This document shows, one piece after another, positions 16,186 through 20,930 of a DNA stretch of 64,000 nucleotides. The stretch is from positions 1-64,000 of the forward strand of contig JAERSH010000065.1 of assembly GCA_016845785.1 (NCBI GenBank), written 5' to 3'. The notes beneath the pieces were generated by a model. That model made no database searches. It saw nothing but the letters and a program-made list of their open reading frames with translations, and was not told where the DNA came from. Positions within the stretch are counted from its first letter, which is position 1, and the number at the start of each line of letters is the position of its first letter. The translations under genes and the position numbers were made by a program. The stretch is from Fidelibacterota bacterium. GTDB taxonomy: Bacteria; Fidelibacterota; Marinisomatia; Marinisomatales; TCS55.

Positions 16186-17553
16186 CTAGGTTGGTTCTGC
16201 AGGTAACAATTTACGAAATGCCCACCGAAGCCAAACAATAGAAATGATGGTGGCCACAATACCGGAAATGACCATGGCATACCACATCCATTCTACCGGT
16301 TTATTGAGGACATGGGTAAAATAATAGGCCAAAGGACCGGCCACCCCAATGACACGAATCACGGTGATGATGAGTGAGGGCATTCCCAACCCGATCCCTT
16401 GCAATATCCGCCCGATTGTCATTCCAATTGCTATTAATGGAAAAATGAATGCAATGATTCTTAAATAATCTACCGCAATCGATTGAATAACTGACTCTTG
16501 AGTGAAAACGGTCACAACAGATGGGGCTAAAGTAAATAGTAAGGTTGAACCAGTCGCCGTAATTAACACGGCTCTCGATATCCCATATTTGGTAATATAT
16601 TTGATTTTTTCTGATTCTTTTGCACCAAAAAACATACCTACCATTGTAGTTAGCGCCGATGCGATACCCATTATAGGGAGAAATACTACCATGTCAATCC
16701 GACCTCCAACCTGATACGCTGCAACAGCATTAGTTGAATACGATACCAGCATTCGATTAAAGACTAATTGGCCAATTGACATGACCATCATAGACATGGA
16801 TGCGGGAATACCCACCTTGACAATGTCCTGAATGATAAATCGAGACGGTTTGAAATCCCGCATTCTGAATTTGACATAAGCATGTTCTTTTACAAATAGC
16901 ATAAATACGAAAATTATAAAAACAATGATTTGGCTAATGGTTGTGGCCCATGCGGCGCCTGCCACACCAAAGTCCAGTGTAAAAATAAAAATGGGATCCA
17001 AAATGATATTAAAAACTGTGCCCAAACCCGCGACCATCATGGGGAGTTTCATATCTCCTTCTCCAGCTAATATGGATCTAAAAAACATTGAGAATATGCC
17101 AAATGACATACCATAGCAGCTTACCTTTAAATATTCCCATGCTTGAGGTAATACTTCTGGTGTACATCCCATTTTGGTAAGGATTTCAGGACCACGGGTC
17201 AACCCCAATGTGGTTAGCACGGCACTAATCGCCATCGCCATCGCCACTGAATGTTCAGCCGCATTATCTGCATTCGCCTTATCGTCCGCACCAATGAACC
17301 GTGCAATGGAAGCAGTTACGCCACTCCCCAATCCGAATGATAAACCCAGAACCATAAAAAATACGGGCATATTAAATGCCACAGCCGCGATGGCATCACC
17401 GCCTAGTTTGCCGATAAAAATCATATCCACTATAGTATATAAAGTTTGAATCCCCATGCCCGCAATGATGGGGATAGCCAATGTCCACATGGATTTGGTC
17501 GGGTGATCTAAAAAGGATTGAAGCCGCGAATGGCGATTATTATCAAAATTCAT
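16186..17553 (-). CDS. MATE family multidrug/Na+ antiporter
   Basis: A 455-residue, twelve-helix membrane protein of the multidrug and toxic compound extrusion family. The first half has PTKSMWTLAIPIIAGMGIQTLYTIVDMIFIGKLGGDAIAAVAF (~18-60, outlined) and GLSFGLGSGVTASIARFIGA, both typical MATE blocks. The pseudo-symmetric second half repeats the pattern at GIPASMSMMVMSIGQLVFN. It would export cationic compounds or metabolites in exchange for Na+ or H+. Length is standard. It is followed closely by the pterin dehydratase gene; no functional link is evident. Confidence 0.92.
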   Translation of the reverse strand: MNFDNNRHSRLQSFLDHPTKSMWTLAIPIIAGMGIQTLYTIVDMIFIGKLGGDAIAAVAFNMPVFFMVLGLSFGLGSGVTASIARFIGADDKANADNAAEHSVAMAMAISAVLTTLGLTRGPEILTKMGCTPEVLPQAWEYLKVSCYGMSFGIFSMFFRSILAGEGDMKLPMMVAGLGTVFNIILDPIFIFTLDFGVAGAAWATTISQIIVFIIFVFMLFVKEHAYVKFRMRDFKPSRFIIQDIVKVGIPASMSMMVMSIGQLVFNRMLVSYSTNAVAAYQVGGRIDMVVFLPIMGIASALTTMVGMFFGAKESEKIKYITKYGISRAVLITATGSTLLFTLAPSVVTVFTQESVIQSIAVDYLRIIAFIFPLIAIGMTIGRILQGIGLGMPSLIITVIRVIGVAGPLAYYFTHVLNKPVEWMWYAMVISGIVATIISIVWLRWAFRKLLPAEPT

Positions 17554-17603: not shown

Positions 17604-18308
17604 TTATTTAGGAAAGGAAATCTGCCAATCTGCATTAAGTTTTAGACCATCTATATGGCCGGAGAGTGCATCAGATTCATATAAAATATGCATATGCGTA
17701 TATCGAGTGTGATGTGTAAATACTGCTTGATGTTTCTCAGAGTAAAACCCTAAAATTTTCCCTTGAGTATTTGAATCCTTCCTTTTCCATGATTTTGCTA
17801 AATGATCATCATGGCTGCCGTCTGGACTTTGGGGTGAAATAATATGCCAATCGATTTCGCTAAACTCTCCCGTAATAATGAATGGAAAGGGGTTTTCTAT
17901 ATCCACCCCAACTTTTTTTGCTTCTGCTTTTATTTTGGAATCGATTGAATAATAATCTGTTTCTTGATTGATTTGAATGGTTTGCCAATCATTAACCTTC
18001 GCCGTCACTAATAATAAGGCTTTACTATTTTTATCAGGTATTGTTTGACCTGTGGGTATTCCGTAAGGTTTTGCCCGATTTATGAGCAATTGACTATCCA
18101 TGATTAGGATTTCACCATCCAAGTTTTCCATCGCGCCAATACCATAAACATGATCATCATTTATGACCTCAGATAATTGAACAACCCCCTGGCGAGCTCC
18201 TTTATGCATGATTTCTTTTAATGCACCATGAATTTGAAGATCTAATTCTGGCTGTTGAACGCACGAGAATAAAAAACCCAATTGAAAAATGTAAATAAAT
18301 CTGTTCAT
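17604..18308 (-). CDS. Exported acetolactate decarboxylase-like lipoprotein
   Basis: A 234-residue protein of the alpha-acetolactate decarboxylase family. Three candidate zinc ligands, His205, His207 and His218 (YTHMH...SGH), have the same 2- and 11-residue spacing as in the Brevibacillus enzyme. The glycine/acid block NLDGEILIMD (Glu66) is also present. The enzyme converts 2-acetolactate to acetoin. The N-terminus looks like a lipoprotein signal (short charged start, hydrophobic core, GFLFSC with Cys16), which would put it in the periplasm. The Brevibacillus enzyme is also secreted, but the physiological sense of a periplasmic form here is unclear. No acetolactate synthase is nearby. Confidence 0.8.
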   Translation of the reverse strand: MNRFIYIFQLGFLFSCVQQPELDLQIHGALKEIMHKGARQGVVQLSEVINDDHVYGIGAMENLDGEILIMDSQLLINRAKPYGIPTGQTIPDKNSKALLLVTAKVNDWQTIQINQETDYYSIDSKIKAEAKKVGVDIENPFPFIITGEFSEIDWHIISPQSPDGSHDDHLAKSWKRKDSNTQGKILGFYSEKHQAVFTHHTRYTHMHILYESDALSGHIDGLKLNADWQISFPK

Positions 18309-18344: not shown

Positions 18345-18563
18345 TCATCCAAACCCTGGACCCGCTGGAGCGGCGCAACTTGGCTTTGCACATCCGGGGT
18401 CAAATGATGACTCCACTGAGACTGATGGCGCTGACAATTGTTTCTTTGATTGATGTGCCCCACATTTAGGGCATGGTATTTCAGAATCTGGAACTGAACT
18501 TGAAATTACAAGTTCATCAAATGTATGTTCACATTGTCCACAAATATAATCAAACATTGGCAT
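18345..18563 (-). CDS. FmdB-family zinc-ribbon protein
   Basis: This 72-residue protein has two CxxC knuckles (YICGQCEHTFDEL and IPCPKCGA) that form the FmdB zinc ribbon in its first 45 residues. A low-complexity tail contains two further Cys and Ala/Pro/Gly residues. FmdB proteins are proposed regulators or small metal-binding partners; the biochemical role is not settled. A strong AAGGAAG ribosome site lies within the 3' end of the preceding tiny ORF. It is the last recognisable member of the redox/sulfur operon that begins with thioredoxin. Confidence 0.88.
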   Translation of the reverse strand: MPMFDYICGQCEHTFDELVISSSVPDSEIPCPKCGAHQSKKQLSAPSVSVESSFDPGCAKPSCAAPAGPGFG

Positions 18564-18566
18564 AAT

Positions 18567-18713
18567 TTATTCTTCCTTTTTATCGACTCGCCCGTCCTCA
18601 CCCGGAGGAAATGGATTATGTCAAGTTGGTACCCCTGCTCTTGGCAGGATGAACCGACTCATTAGCCACCATACTCCAAAAATGATAGCAATATTAAATA
18701 TATCTTCAATCAT
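18567..18713 (-). CDS. Tiny membrane ORF with in-frame TGA: candidate selenoprotein (or 30-aa peptide)
   Basis: An ATG at 18713 overlaps the DUF302 stop (ATGA) and opens MIEDIFNIAIIFGVWWLMSR..., one membrane helix followed by RFILPRAGVPT. A TGA at 18621-18623 comes after 30 codons. The same frame continues for 17 more residues (HNPFPPGEDGRVDKKEE) to a TAA at 18567, only 3 bp before the FmdB ATG. If the TGA is decoded as selenocysteine the product is 48 residues and exactly fills the gap in a tightly packed operon. A SECIS-like hairpin follows the TGA. Alternatives are a real 30-residue peptide or a nonsense mutation. I know of no characterised homologue. Confidence 0.45.
18592..18614 (-). other. 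SECIS-like hairpin after the in-frame TGA
   Basis: On the minus strand, 11 nt after the TGA, TCCTC (18609-18605) pairs with GAGGA (18599-18595) around the loop CGGGT. An outer CC/GG pair is reached through a small internal bulge. The apical loop starts 17 nt after the TGA and has G as its second base. Both points fit the published bacterial SECIS consensus (loop 16-37 nt downstream, a G in the first two loop bases). A 5-bp stem can occur by chance. Confidence 0.35.
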
Positions 18714-19096
18714 ACAGCATCAATAGCTTCTGTGAGCAATTGATTAACTTGATTCGATAAGGGTTCCATATCATTTCGACCCGTTACGGACAGCATTTGT
18801 CGGGCATCAATCGCAGAAAGGGTAACGGTTCCATCCTCATTATCCCATATCACTATATTACAAGGCAATAGCAATCCGATTCCTGGTTCTTCTGATAATG
18901 CTTGGTGGGCAATATTTGGATTGCAAGCGCCTAAAATTTTATATGGCCTAAAATCAACATCTAATTTTGTTTTTAATGTTTTTTTCACATCGATTTCGGT
19001 GAGAACTCCAAATCCTTTTGATTGAAGGGTTCGCCTAACTTTTTCTTCCGTTTTTTCCATACCAAGTTGAATGATTTTACTATATCCATATTTCAT
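18710..19096 (-). CDS. DUF302 domain protein
   Basis: A 128-residue soluble protein covering the whole DUF302 fold. It contains KVRRTLQSKGFGVLTEIDVKKTLKTKL, the conserved YKILGACNPNIAHQAL block and LLLPCNIVIWDNEDGTV. The single Cys in GACNP and the Cys in LLPC are conserved in many members. The family is widespread, often beside thioredoxin, rhodanese or metal-related genes, with no proven activity. I chose the ATG at 19096, which has AAGGAAA upstream and overlaps the DUF6132 stop (ATGA); a longer start at 19126 would lie inside that gene. Confidence 0.88.
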   Translation of the reverse strand: MKYGYSKIIQLGMEKTEEKVRRTLQSKGFGVLTEIDVKKTLKTKLDVDFRPYKILGACNPNIAHQALSEEPGIGLLLPCNIVIWDNEDGTVTLSAIDARQMLSVTGRNDMEPLSNQVNQLLTEAIDAV

Positions 19097-19299
19097 GATT
19101 TTTCCTTTTTTTGATTTGTGGGCCAAAATAGTATTATCCCCATTACAGTTCCATATATCATACTATTGATCGGATTGGAAGTAATGGCACATGTTCCTGA
19201 ATCACAACCAATAAAATAGTAATAACCAAAACCAACCATACTCCCTAAGAAAATACCTGCTCCCATTCTAATAGTCATCTTTGACAAATATTTATTCAT
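19093..19299 (-). CDS. DUF6132 family small membrane protein
   Basis: A 68-residue protein with two hydrophobic segments bracketing FIGCDSGTCAITSNPINSMIYG, the Cys/Gly-rich core of the DUF6132 family. The two Cys six residues apart face one side of the membrane and could be redox active or metal binding; that is inferred. The start at 19299 overlaps the rhodanese stop (ATGA); an in-frame ATG at 19314 is possible. In other FCB genomes the family often lies next to rhodaneses, as here, suggesting a shared sulfur or redox task. Confidence 0.82.
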   Translation of the reverse strand: MNKYLSKMTIRMGAGIFLGSMVGFGYYYFIGCDSGTCAITSNPINSMIYGTVMGIILFWPTNQKKEKS

Positions 19300-19685
19300 T
19301 TCGATCGGTTCCATTTAATCATTCCGCCCAACATATTTTTTGCTGTGAATCCACTTTTATTTAAAAAATTAGTGGCTTGTCCAGATCGATTACCTGACCG
19401 ACATACCATGATTAATTCCTTGAATCTATATTTATCAAGTTCATGAATACGATTAGGTAATTCATCCAGCGGTAATAATTGTGCGCCTTCGATATGGTCA
19501 TTATGATATTCTGAGGGTGTTCTTACATCAATTAGGATTAATTTTTCCATTTTCATTCTTAATCTTAAAGAATCAACCGTAATTGTATCATTCAGTAATC
19601 TTCCAGACTCAATTTGATTTGGTTGCCAGTGTTGAACAATAAAATACCCAATGATTAATACACCAACTGCCATTGTCAATTTCAT
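19296..19685 (-). CDS. Membrane-anchored rhodanese-like sulfurtransferase
   Basis: This 129-residue protein starts with an N-terminal hydrophobic anchor (MKLTMAVGVLIIGYFIVQHW) and continues as a single rhodanese domain: LILIDVRTPSEYHNDHIEGAQLLP and the active-site loop VCRSGNRSGQA with catalytic Cys. It would carry sulfane sulfur as a persulfide on the outer face of the inner membrane. The start overlaps the anti-sigma stop (TAATG) and the end overlaps the DUF6132 gene, so production of these proteins is coupled. The natural donor and acceptor are unknown. Confidence 0.9.
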   Translation of the reverse strand: MKLTMAVGVLIIGYFIVQHWQPNQIESGRLLNDTITVDSLRLRMKMEKLILIDVRTPSEYHNDHIEGAQLLPLDELPNRIHELDKYRFKELIMVCRSGNRSGQATNFLNKSGFTAKNMLGGMIKWNRSK

Positions 19686-19930
19686 TATGAATGCCTTTTC
19701 AATTTTAACGTTTTAAATAACCGATCTGAAACATCTTCTGGAACAGATTGATTCTTTTCTGTCGTTCGATAAATTTTAACCGTGTGTTTCACACTGTCTA
19801 CATAAATTTTGCAATCGGGACAATCTTTCATATGCTTCGCAATATTTTCCATAACTTCGGAATCAATATCTTTTCCAAATTGAGACTGGAGTGAATCCAA
19901 CAGTTGCTTGTCATGATTATGATGATTCAA
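19685..19930 (-). CDS. Small zinc-binding anti-sigma factor
   Basis: This 81-residue protein lies 1 bp after the ECF sigma gene. It has the zinc anti-sigma (zf-HC2) motif HMKDCPDCKIYVD (His-x3-Cys-x2-Cys). There is no membrane segment, so it is a soluble anti-sigma of the ZAS type, which often releases its sigma factor when the Cys are oxidised. The His-rich start (MNHHNHDK) may add metal affinity. Pairing with the sigma factor upstream is inferred from position and motif. With thioredoxin in the same operon, a thiol-redox switch is an attractive reading. Confidence 0.82.
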   Translation of the reverse strand: MNHHNHDKQLLDSLQSQFGKDIDSEVMENIAKHMKDCPDCKIYVDSVKHTVKIYRTTEKNQSVPEDVSDRLFKTLKLKRHS

Positions 19931-19931
19931 A

Positions 19932-20522
19932 TTATCTCCTTTCTACACACTTTAACTTGATGGCCAATTGATCTCTCAACAATAGTCGTGCTCGCATCAA
20001 CCTTACTTTAACATTCGAAATTGAAATTCCAAGAATTTTTGAAGTTTCTTTGGTAGACATCCCTTCTAAATCTCTAAGAACAAATACAACTCTATAATCT
20101 TCTGAAAGCCGGTTTAGTGCTTTTGTTAAACAATCGCTAAATGCTTTTTTGTCCATTTCATTTTCAGGATGATTTGGCCAATTCCGAATTTCATATCCTT
20201 TAAGTGATTCAAAATCTGGGTCATGAATAGAAATGTCTTTGTCGATTAATTCTTTTGCTCGCATTTTACTTAGTGCAACATTTGTTGTTACCCGAAAAAG
20301 CCAAGTACTTAAGGATGATTCCCCCCTATAAGATTGAACCTTATTCATAAAAATTAGGAATGTTTCTTGGAGCACATCTTCTGCATCTTCTTTATTTCGT
20401 AATAATTTTAGGGCGAGATTATAAACTCGACCCGACTCTCTGGATACAATTTCAGCGATGGCCCATTTGTCCCCCGTTTTTGCCATTTTAACCAAATGGG
20501 CTTCATCGCTATTATTGGGCAT
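19932..20522 (-). CDS. ECF-type RNA polymerase sigma factor
   Basis: A 196-residue sigma-70 family protein of the extracytoplasmic-function group. Region 2 has RVYNLALKLLRNKEDAEDVLQETFLIF and SSLSTWLFRVTTNVAL. Region 4 has RLSEDYRVVFVLRDLEGMSTKETSKILGISISNVKVRLMRARLLL with its helix-turn-helix. There is no region 1 or 3. The ATG at 20522 is preferred; a TTG at 20525 is adjacent. It sits between thioredoxin and the zinc anti-sigma and probably directs transcription of its own operon in response to oxidative or sulfur stress. No promoter repeat could be confirmed from one site. Confidence 0.93.
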   Translation of the reverse strand: MPNNSDEAHLVKMAKTGDKWAIAEIVSRESGRVYNLALKLLRNKEDAEDVLQETFLIFMNKVQSYRGESSLSTWLFRVTTNVALSKMRAKELIDKDISIHDPDFESLKGYEIRNWPNHPENEMDKKAFSDCLTKALNRLSEDYRVVFVLRDLEGMSTKETSKILGISISNVKVRLMRARLLLRDQLAIKLKCVERR

Positions 20523-20532
20523 CAATTGTGTA

Positions 20533-20871
20533 CTACACTAATTTAGCAGCTAAATGATAATCAATTTTTTCTTTGAGAACGTGTTTTGGTAAAGCGCCAA
20601 CCACACGGTCAATTTCTTCTCCATCCCTCAAGAATAGAATCGATGGTATTCCAGTAACTCCAAATTCACTTGGCTTGCTATTTTCATCCGCATTGAGTTT
20701 TCCTATGATGGCTTTGCCTTCATATTCATCGGCTAATTCATCAATAATTGGCCCTACAATTCGACAGGGTCCACACCAAGGTGCCCATATGTCTACAATA
20801 ACCAATCCATTCGAGTTTACGACTTCTGAATTCCAGTTTTGATCCGTAATCATTTTGGTGTTTTTGGACAT
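20533..20871 (-). CDS. trxA: Thioredoxin
   Basis: A 112-residue classical thioredoxin with active site WAPWCGPCR, the buried Asp (VDIWAPW), the cis-Pro loop GVTGIPS and a conserved C-terminal helix. It reduces protein disulfides in the cytoplasm. I chose the ATG at 20871, which has GGGG at the right distance, over an ATG at 20883 with no ribosome site. It is the first gene of the ECF sigma/rhodanese/DUF302 operon, seven bases ahead of the sigma gene. It may therefore reset the zinc anti-sigma thiols as well as serve general reduction. Confidence 0.95.
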   Translation of the reverse strand: MSKNTKMITDQNWNSEVVNSNGLVIVDIWAPWCGPCRIVGPIIDELADEYEGKAIIGKLNADENSKPSEFGVTGIPSILFLRDGEEIDRVVGALPKHVLKEKIDYHLAAKLV

Positions 20872-20930
20872 TTTATTCCCCATTTAATTATACGTTTGAT
20901 GGAAAAAATGATTAAGAGTTACATAATTTT

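Follow-up and report, generated by a model that had tools for sequence, protein, structure and literature searches.

Whether an in-frame TGA ends a short membrane peptide or is read as selenocysteine (Sec) is the question raised by a 48-codon frame on the minus strand (18713-18567) of the window, by which is meant the whole 64,000-nucleotide stretch of DNA that was analysed. The frame starts with an ATG at 18713, which overlaps the stop codon of a DUF302 gene as ATGA (18710-18713), runs for 30 codons to the TGA (18621-18623, preceded by GVPT) and continues for 17 more codons to a TAA (18567-18569), with 3 bp between this TAA and the ATG (18563) of an FmdB-family gene. These coordinates agree with those of an initial annotation, in which the read-through frame had been put forward as a candidate selenoprotein gene of this particular operon. 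The product would be MIEDIFNIAIIFGVWWLMSRFILPRAGVPT-(TGA)-HNPFPPGEDGRVDKKEE, with Sec at codon 31, and the window gene very probably (roughly 95%) encodes a Sec-containing 48-residue single-pass membrane protein.

The operon and its surroundings

The genes upstream of the frame, all on the minus strand, encode in order a thioredoxin with a WCGPC motif (20533-20883; TIGR01068, 104 bits, over the cut-off), an ECF sigma factor (19932-20525; TIGR02937, 111.8 bits), a small HxxxCxxC protein (19685-19930), a membrane-anchored rhodanese (19296-19685; PF00581, E = 3.2e-16), a small DUF6132 membrane protein (19093-19314; PF19628, E = 1.6e-7) and, directly upstream, the DUF302 protein (18710-19097, with a probable ATG at 19097; PF03625, E = 7.8e-27). 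Directly downstream lies the FmdB-family zinc ribbon protein (18345-18563, minus strand; TIGR02605, E = 1.4e-13; PF09723), in which Cys is present and an in-frame TGA is absent. The genes for DUF6132, DUF302 and FmdB are linked to the selenoprotein gene in other phyla too. From the sigma gene through DUF302, adjacent genes either overlap or lie a few bases apart, as had been observed initially; the accompanying description of all neighbours as thiol/sulfur proteins was too strong, DUF302, DUF6132 and FmdB being without established function. The HxxxCxxC protein, whose motif reads HMKDCPDC, adjoins the ECF sigma gene and looks like a redox-sensing, zinc-binding anti-sigma factor of the RsrA kind that is too diverged for the RsrA model (TIGR03988, E = 1.1e-4, 22 bits, below the cut-off of 62.5). 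A MATE efflux gene is found downstream of FmdB in about 14 related loci; in the window (16186-17553) it is separated from FmdB by a gene whose product matches alpha-acetolactate decarboxylase (17604-18308).

Reading of the in-frame TGA

The window's relatives and 245 genomes of its phylum, Candidatus Neomarinimicrobiota, were searched by read-through, with any stop codon permitted at the site. Among the relatives, matches down to E = 1e-14 were obtained, and the strong ones all contained one TGA. A profile built from 16 relatives gave 31 positive genomes out of the 245; all 31 homologues carried TGA at the same codon, and none had a Cys codon, TAA or TAG there. The window gene is a typical Neomarinimicrobiota member of the family. 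Two partial matches without TGA in this phylum (L034, L046) were attributed to chance, and a copy from the same genus (L032, 1501-1632, genome G001), split over two frames in the helix and with VQT before the TGA, was read as either a pseudogene or an assembly error. A single-protein scan of GTDB contigs was too stringent for a query of 48 residues with C in place of U and returned no match; a motif pattern permitting Sec or Cys overcame this. The DNA pattern W-x7-[LF]-P-[KR]-x-G-[VI]-P-T followed by TGA, TGC or TGT, run over 84,980 species genomes (GTDB), matched at least 115 stretches against an estimated 6 or so expected by chance; among the 115 matches listed, 114 had TGA and one TGC, in a scan that by design sees neither TAA nor TAG, both of which are visible to the read-through profile searches. 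The matches listed came from Nitrospirae, KSB1, Calditrichaeota, Armatimonadota, Geobacter, Trichlorobacter and other Deltaproteobacteria, Myxococcales, SAR324, Gemmatimonadota, Planctomycetota, Thermodesulfobacteria, Acidobacteria, Chloroflexi, Spirochaetes, Zixiibacteria and Actinomycetota, and one TGA match, in Oscillibacter (L216), was plainly due to chance. The selenoprotein family spans well over a dozen phyla; the candidate was borne out, and its confinement to one kind of operon was not. Relatives among plasmid records were sought and none was found.

The core of a bacterial SECIS hairpin, TCCTC-CGGGT-GAGGA, is present on the minus strand at 18595-18609, with its loop beginning 17 nt past the TGA. 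The hairpin had been part of the original proposal; taken by itself, it folds no better than expected by chance (z = -0.39; matched by 65 of 200 shuffles) and is hence uninformative, so that the case rests on comparison, and it is only across homologues that the putative element becomes compelling. When real and dinucleotide-shuffled sequences were searched in the same way for a hairpin scoring at least 9 with a G at loop position 1 or 2, such a hairpin followed the TGA in 93% of 101 members, as against 37.5% of shuffles, and in 94% of the distinct genes finally collected. The loop began mostly 16-24 nt past the TGA across the 101 members, and the stem sequences show no relation to one another (for example, TCTCCCGC/GCGGGAGA, AGGCCCCG/CGGGGCCT and TTCTTGTC/GACAAGAA). 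For a stem of fixed register in Neomarinimicrobiota, 89.7% of cells were paired, relative to 46-61% with the partner slid, and its covariation score was reached by 0 of 500 shuffles. Two of the six Cys forms were still above the hairpin threshold. Rfam holds no model for this hairpin.

Sec machinery was looked for in the same genomes. In the window's genome, a tRNA-Sec with a UCA anticodon was found (66.3 bits; gathering threshold 47), together with the C-terminal piece of SelB, which adjoins mutS at the end of contig C25; both components had been named beforehand as ones that the genome should not lack. A SelA search of this genome gave no match, and the assembly breaks where sister genomes carry selA-selB-mutS in this order, the sisters' selA having been recognised by eye and not by a model; the negative search is probably explained by selA and most of selB falling in the assembly gap. 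Within Neomarinimicrobiota, SelB was present in 29 of the 31 selenoprotein-positive genomes, relative to 166 of 245 overall (p = 0.0007), the window's genome being one of the two exceptions, and in other phyla it was over the cut-off in 43 of 49 TGA genomes. Of 96 genomes from the class in which the first Cys form lies, 23 had the gene (17 TGA and six Cys), with SelB over the cut-off in 16 of the 17 TGA genomes and in none of the six Cys genomes (p = 7e-5). This exchange of a putative Sec for Cys in step with SelB is the strongest single argument for a selenoprotein. The TGA genomes without a SelB match over the cut-off, six in other phyla and one in the Cys-form class (G563, G268, G272, G277, G279, G280 and G289), are probably incomplete MAGs, a recent loss of Sec use being the less likely alternative.

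The frame could instead encode an ordinary membrane peptide of 29-31 residues that stops at the TGA, later conservation being incidental; the conserved helix does precede the TGA, and the tails beyond it are short (13-54 residues) and variable. Against this, the codon at the site in the 187 genes is TGA in 181, TGC in four and TGT in two, and never TAA or TAG, though the true terminators of the 181 TGA genes mix all three stops (TAA 81, TGA 61, TAG 39). The initial annotation had asked whether homologues end at this position with differing stops and whether any has Cys there: none had TAA or TAG, and the six Cys homologues, from genomes without SelB, are open across the site. The region past the TGA also carries, in most relatives, a Cys at +5, and it shows the covarying hairpin and a third-position bias. 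In 33 pairs of similar genes, substitutions at the first, second and third codon positions numbered 33, 26 and 68 over the first 30 nt past the TGA and 63, 46 and 98 over the rest, an excess at third positions in keeping with a coding frame beyond the TGA. Together, the codon statistics and the Cys homologues already refute the short peptide, which is very improbable. Still further down in probability, to the point of being negligible, is a nonsense mutation or sequencing error in one genome: the data are from a MAG and the same-genus copy in G001 looks frameshifted, but the same TGA recurs across many phyla, in a total of well over a hundred genomes, single-contig ones included, and this explanation too is already refuted. 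A genetic code with TGA as Trp was set aside, since only one codon is affected, and that codon has a hairpin of its own and follows the presence of SelB. Alternatively, the UGA might serve as a selenium switch, with the full selenoprotein made when selenium is present and a 30-residue peptide when it is lacking, and with a separate role for the truncated helix. Because Sec lies just past the helix, a product terminated there would still be inserted in the membrane; nothing was found to be conserved for the truncated form specifically, however, and the Cys forms in Sec-free genomes make the long product only, so a dual product appears improbable. A TGA read as a sense codon, the SECIS element, the protein family and a dependence on the Sec machinery are all strongly supported by these comparisons, and insertion of Sec at this codon is taken to be close to certain. 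By the proposed mechanism, SelB loaded with Sec-tRNA(UCA) would bind the hairpin just past the UGA and insert selenocysteine.

Predicted protein and possible function

AlphaFold2 predicted one helix in the window protein (residues 2-22; 18648-18710, minus strand; pLDDT about 92) and a tail without confident structure, and a single transmembrane segment is indicated likewise by hydropathy. Charges counted across the family average 1.0 acidic and 0.2 basic residues at the first six positions, and 1.6 basic residues among the twelve positions that precede Sec; by the positive-inside rule, an acidic N-terminus and a basic stretch before Sec put the Sec on the cytosolic side, next to the membrane, and we infer an N-out/C-in topology. 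The predicted layout is therefore a transmembrane helix, the family motif [LF]P[KR]xG[VI]xT-Sec at the cytosolic face of the membrane and a short polar tail, which in most relatives carries a Cys five residues past the Sec. This Sec-x4-Cys arrangement occurs in 59% of the 187 genes and is absent from the window protein and from most Neomarinimicrobiota, so that a selenenylsulfide cannot be universal. A thioredoxin-like fold with CxxU, UxxC or TxxU was not found in the window protein, and the family Cys lies at U+5, not U+3.

The order DUF6132-DUF302-selenoprotein-FmdB is nearly constant in Neomarinimicrobiota, often with a sigma factor, a rhodanese and a thioredoxin in addition. One or more of FmdB, DUF302 and DUF6132 adjoin the gene in KSB1, Acidobacteria, Armatimonadetes, Chloroflexi, Myxococcales and Deltaproteobacteria, and one Cys form (L148) has DUF6132 and thioredoxin-like genes upstream. 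In several Nitrospirae (L111, L125, L138, L149, L159, L170 and L183) the selenoprotein gene lies directly behind rpoA-rplQ, at the end of a ribosomal protein operon; no constant neighbour was seen in Geobacter-type genomes.

A best guess from this gene neighbourhood is a role in thiol/sulfur redox chemistry or sulfur relay, in which a membrane-tethered selenol would undergo selenenylsulfide cycling or carry sulfane sulfur; its partners would be the DUF302 and DUF6132 proteins and the zinc ribbon protein FmdB. A specific thiol/sulfur redox role is slightly short of an even chance. In Neomarinimicrobiota, the selenoprotein gene is part of an ECF-sigma/thioredoxin/rhodanese operon, and thiol stress probably induces it. 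The main rival to this best guess is that Sec serves as a ligand to a metal or metalloid, or as a carrier in selenium/sulfur trafficking, forming with FmdB a membrane-docked soft-metal site in place of a redox catalyst. FmdB is a zinc ribbon protein and a constant neighbour in several phyla, ArsR-type regulators adjoin some members, and 25 of 101 members lack any downstream Cys and are thus ill-suited to a Sec-Cys redox pair, but the thioredoxin, the rhodanese and the probable redox-type sigma/anti-sigma pair of the Neomarinimicrobiota operon argue the other way, and soft-metal binding is considered unlikely.

Relation to known selenoproteins and distribution

No Pfam or NCBIfam (2026) model matched any of 26 members near its cut-off, and weak matches to FliO, AbgT and others were chance similarities of a hydrophobic helix. 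The GVPTU motif is absent from the 119 prokaryotic selenoprotein families and subfamilies of a 2026 review (PMC13188914), the family is absent from the selenoproteins listed in print for three Geobacter species (PMC1794560), and the motif string was met in literature text only in chance strings such as 'septums'. As far as open papers and family models were checked, this is a genuine and new selenoprotein family. One genome-wide selenoprotein method was applied to ORFs of at least 90 residues, or 80 for SelW (PMC1242214), and other searches depend on Cys homologues (PMC2398784, PMC12013277); the family was likely missed because of such length limits and Cys-based methods, Cys forms being rare here. 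The GOS_A family comprises 155 Cys and 2 Sec forms, a ratio opposite to that of the new family; it is short and without a model, and could not be compared directly. In the FmdB-family selenoprotein of the GOS survey, Sec (UxxU) lies within FmdB itself (PMC2398784), whereas here FmdB is a neighbour with ordinary Cys and the Sec would be in the small membrane protein.

Like FdhF, selenium thioredoxins and peroxiredoxins, the family has an in-frame TGA, a downstream G-loop hairpin, SelB and tRNA-Sec encoded in the genome, and Cys forms in Sec-free genomes; unlike them, its members have about 50 residues, one membrane helix and few Cys homologues, and lack a thioredoxin fold and CxxU or UxxC. The eukaryotic selenoproteins K and S are small single-pass membrane proteins with Sec in a cytosolic tail at the far C-terminus and the SECIS in the 3' UTR. 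The new family resembles them as a small single-pass membrane protein with a predicted cytosolic Sec, no sequence relationship being claimed, and differs in having Sec next to the helix and the SECIS inside the coding region. A broader reading, possible but tentative, is that this is among the most widespread bacterial selenoprotein families, overlooked for being too short for gene callers and having few Cys counterparts; that it is nearly obligately Sec, the occurrence of Cys only in a few Sec-free lineages suggesting that selenium itself is needed; and that it forms a membrane-tethered selenol relay with FmdB, DUF302 and DUF6132, as an architectural counterpart of selenoproteins K and S.

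For two decades, selenoprotein families have been sought mainly through Sec/Cys pairing and under length limits. These searches seem to have passed over a family that occurs in about 80% of sampled Geobacter-class genomes, as well as in Nitrospirota, KSB1, Acidobacteria, Planctomycetes, Chloroflexi, Thermodesulfobacteria, SAR324 and others; selenoproteome counts change accordingly, and the family may help to explain why some genomes retain the Sec machinery. For DUF302, DUF6132 and FmdB, recurrent domains of unknown function, a possible shared pathway is gained. The family is testable in Geobacter or Trichlorobacter species in culture. The class to which Trichlorobacter thiogenes belongs (Geobacter/Trichlorobacter) had the gene in 201 of 244 sampled genomes, with TGA in every match listed for the positive genomes, and the genes read out all had TGA and all Sec-x4-Cys. 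In the phylum of one Nitrospirae locus, 11 of 100 sampled genomes were positive, all with TGA, and the TGA form was also found on single-contig genomes. Some genomes of the Geobacter class (G353, G397 and G471) contained two copies of the selenoprotein gene each.
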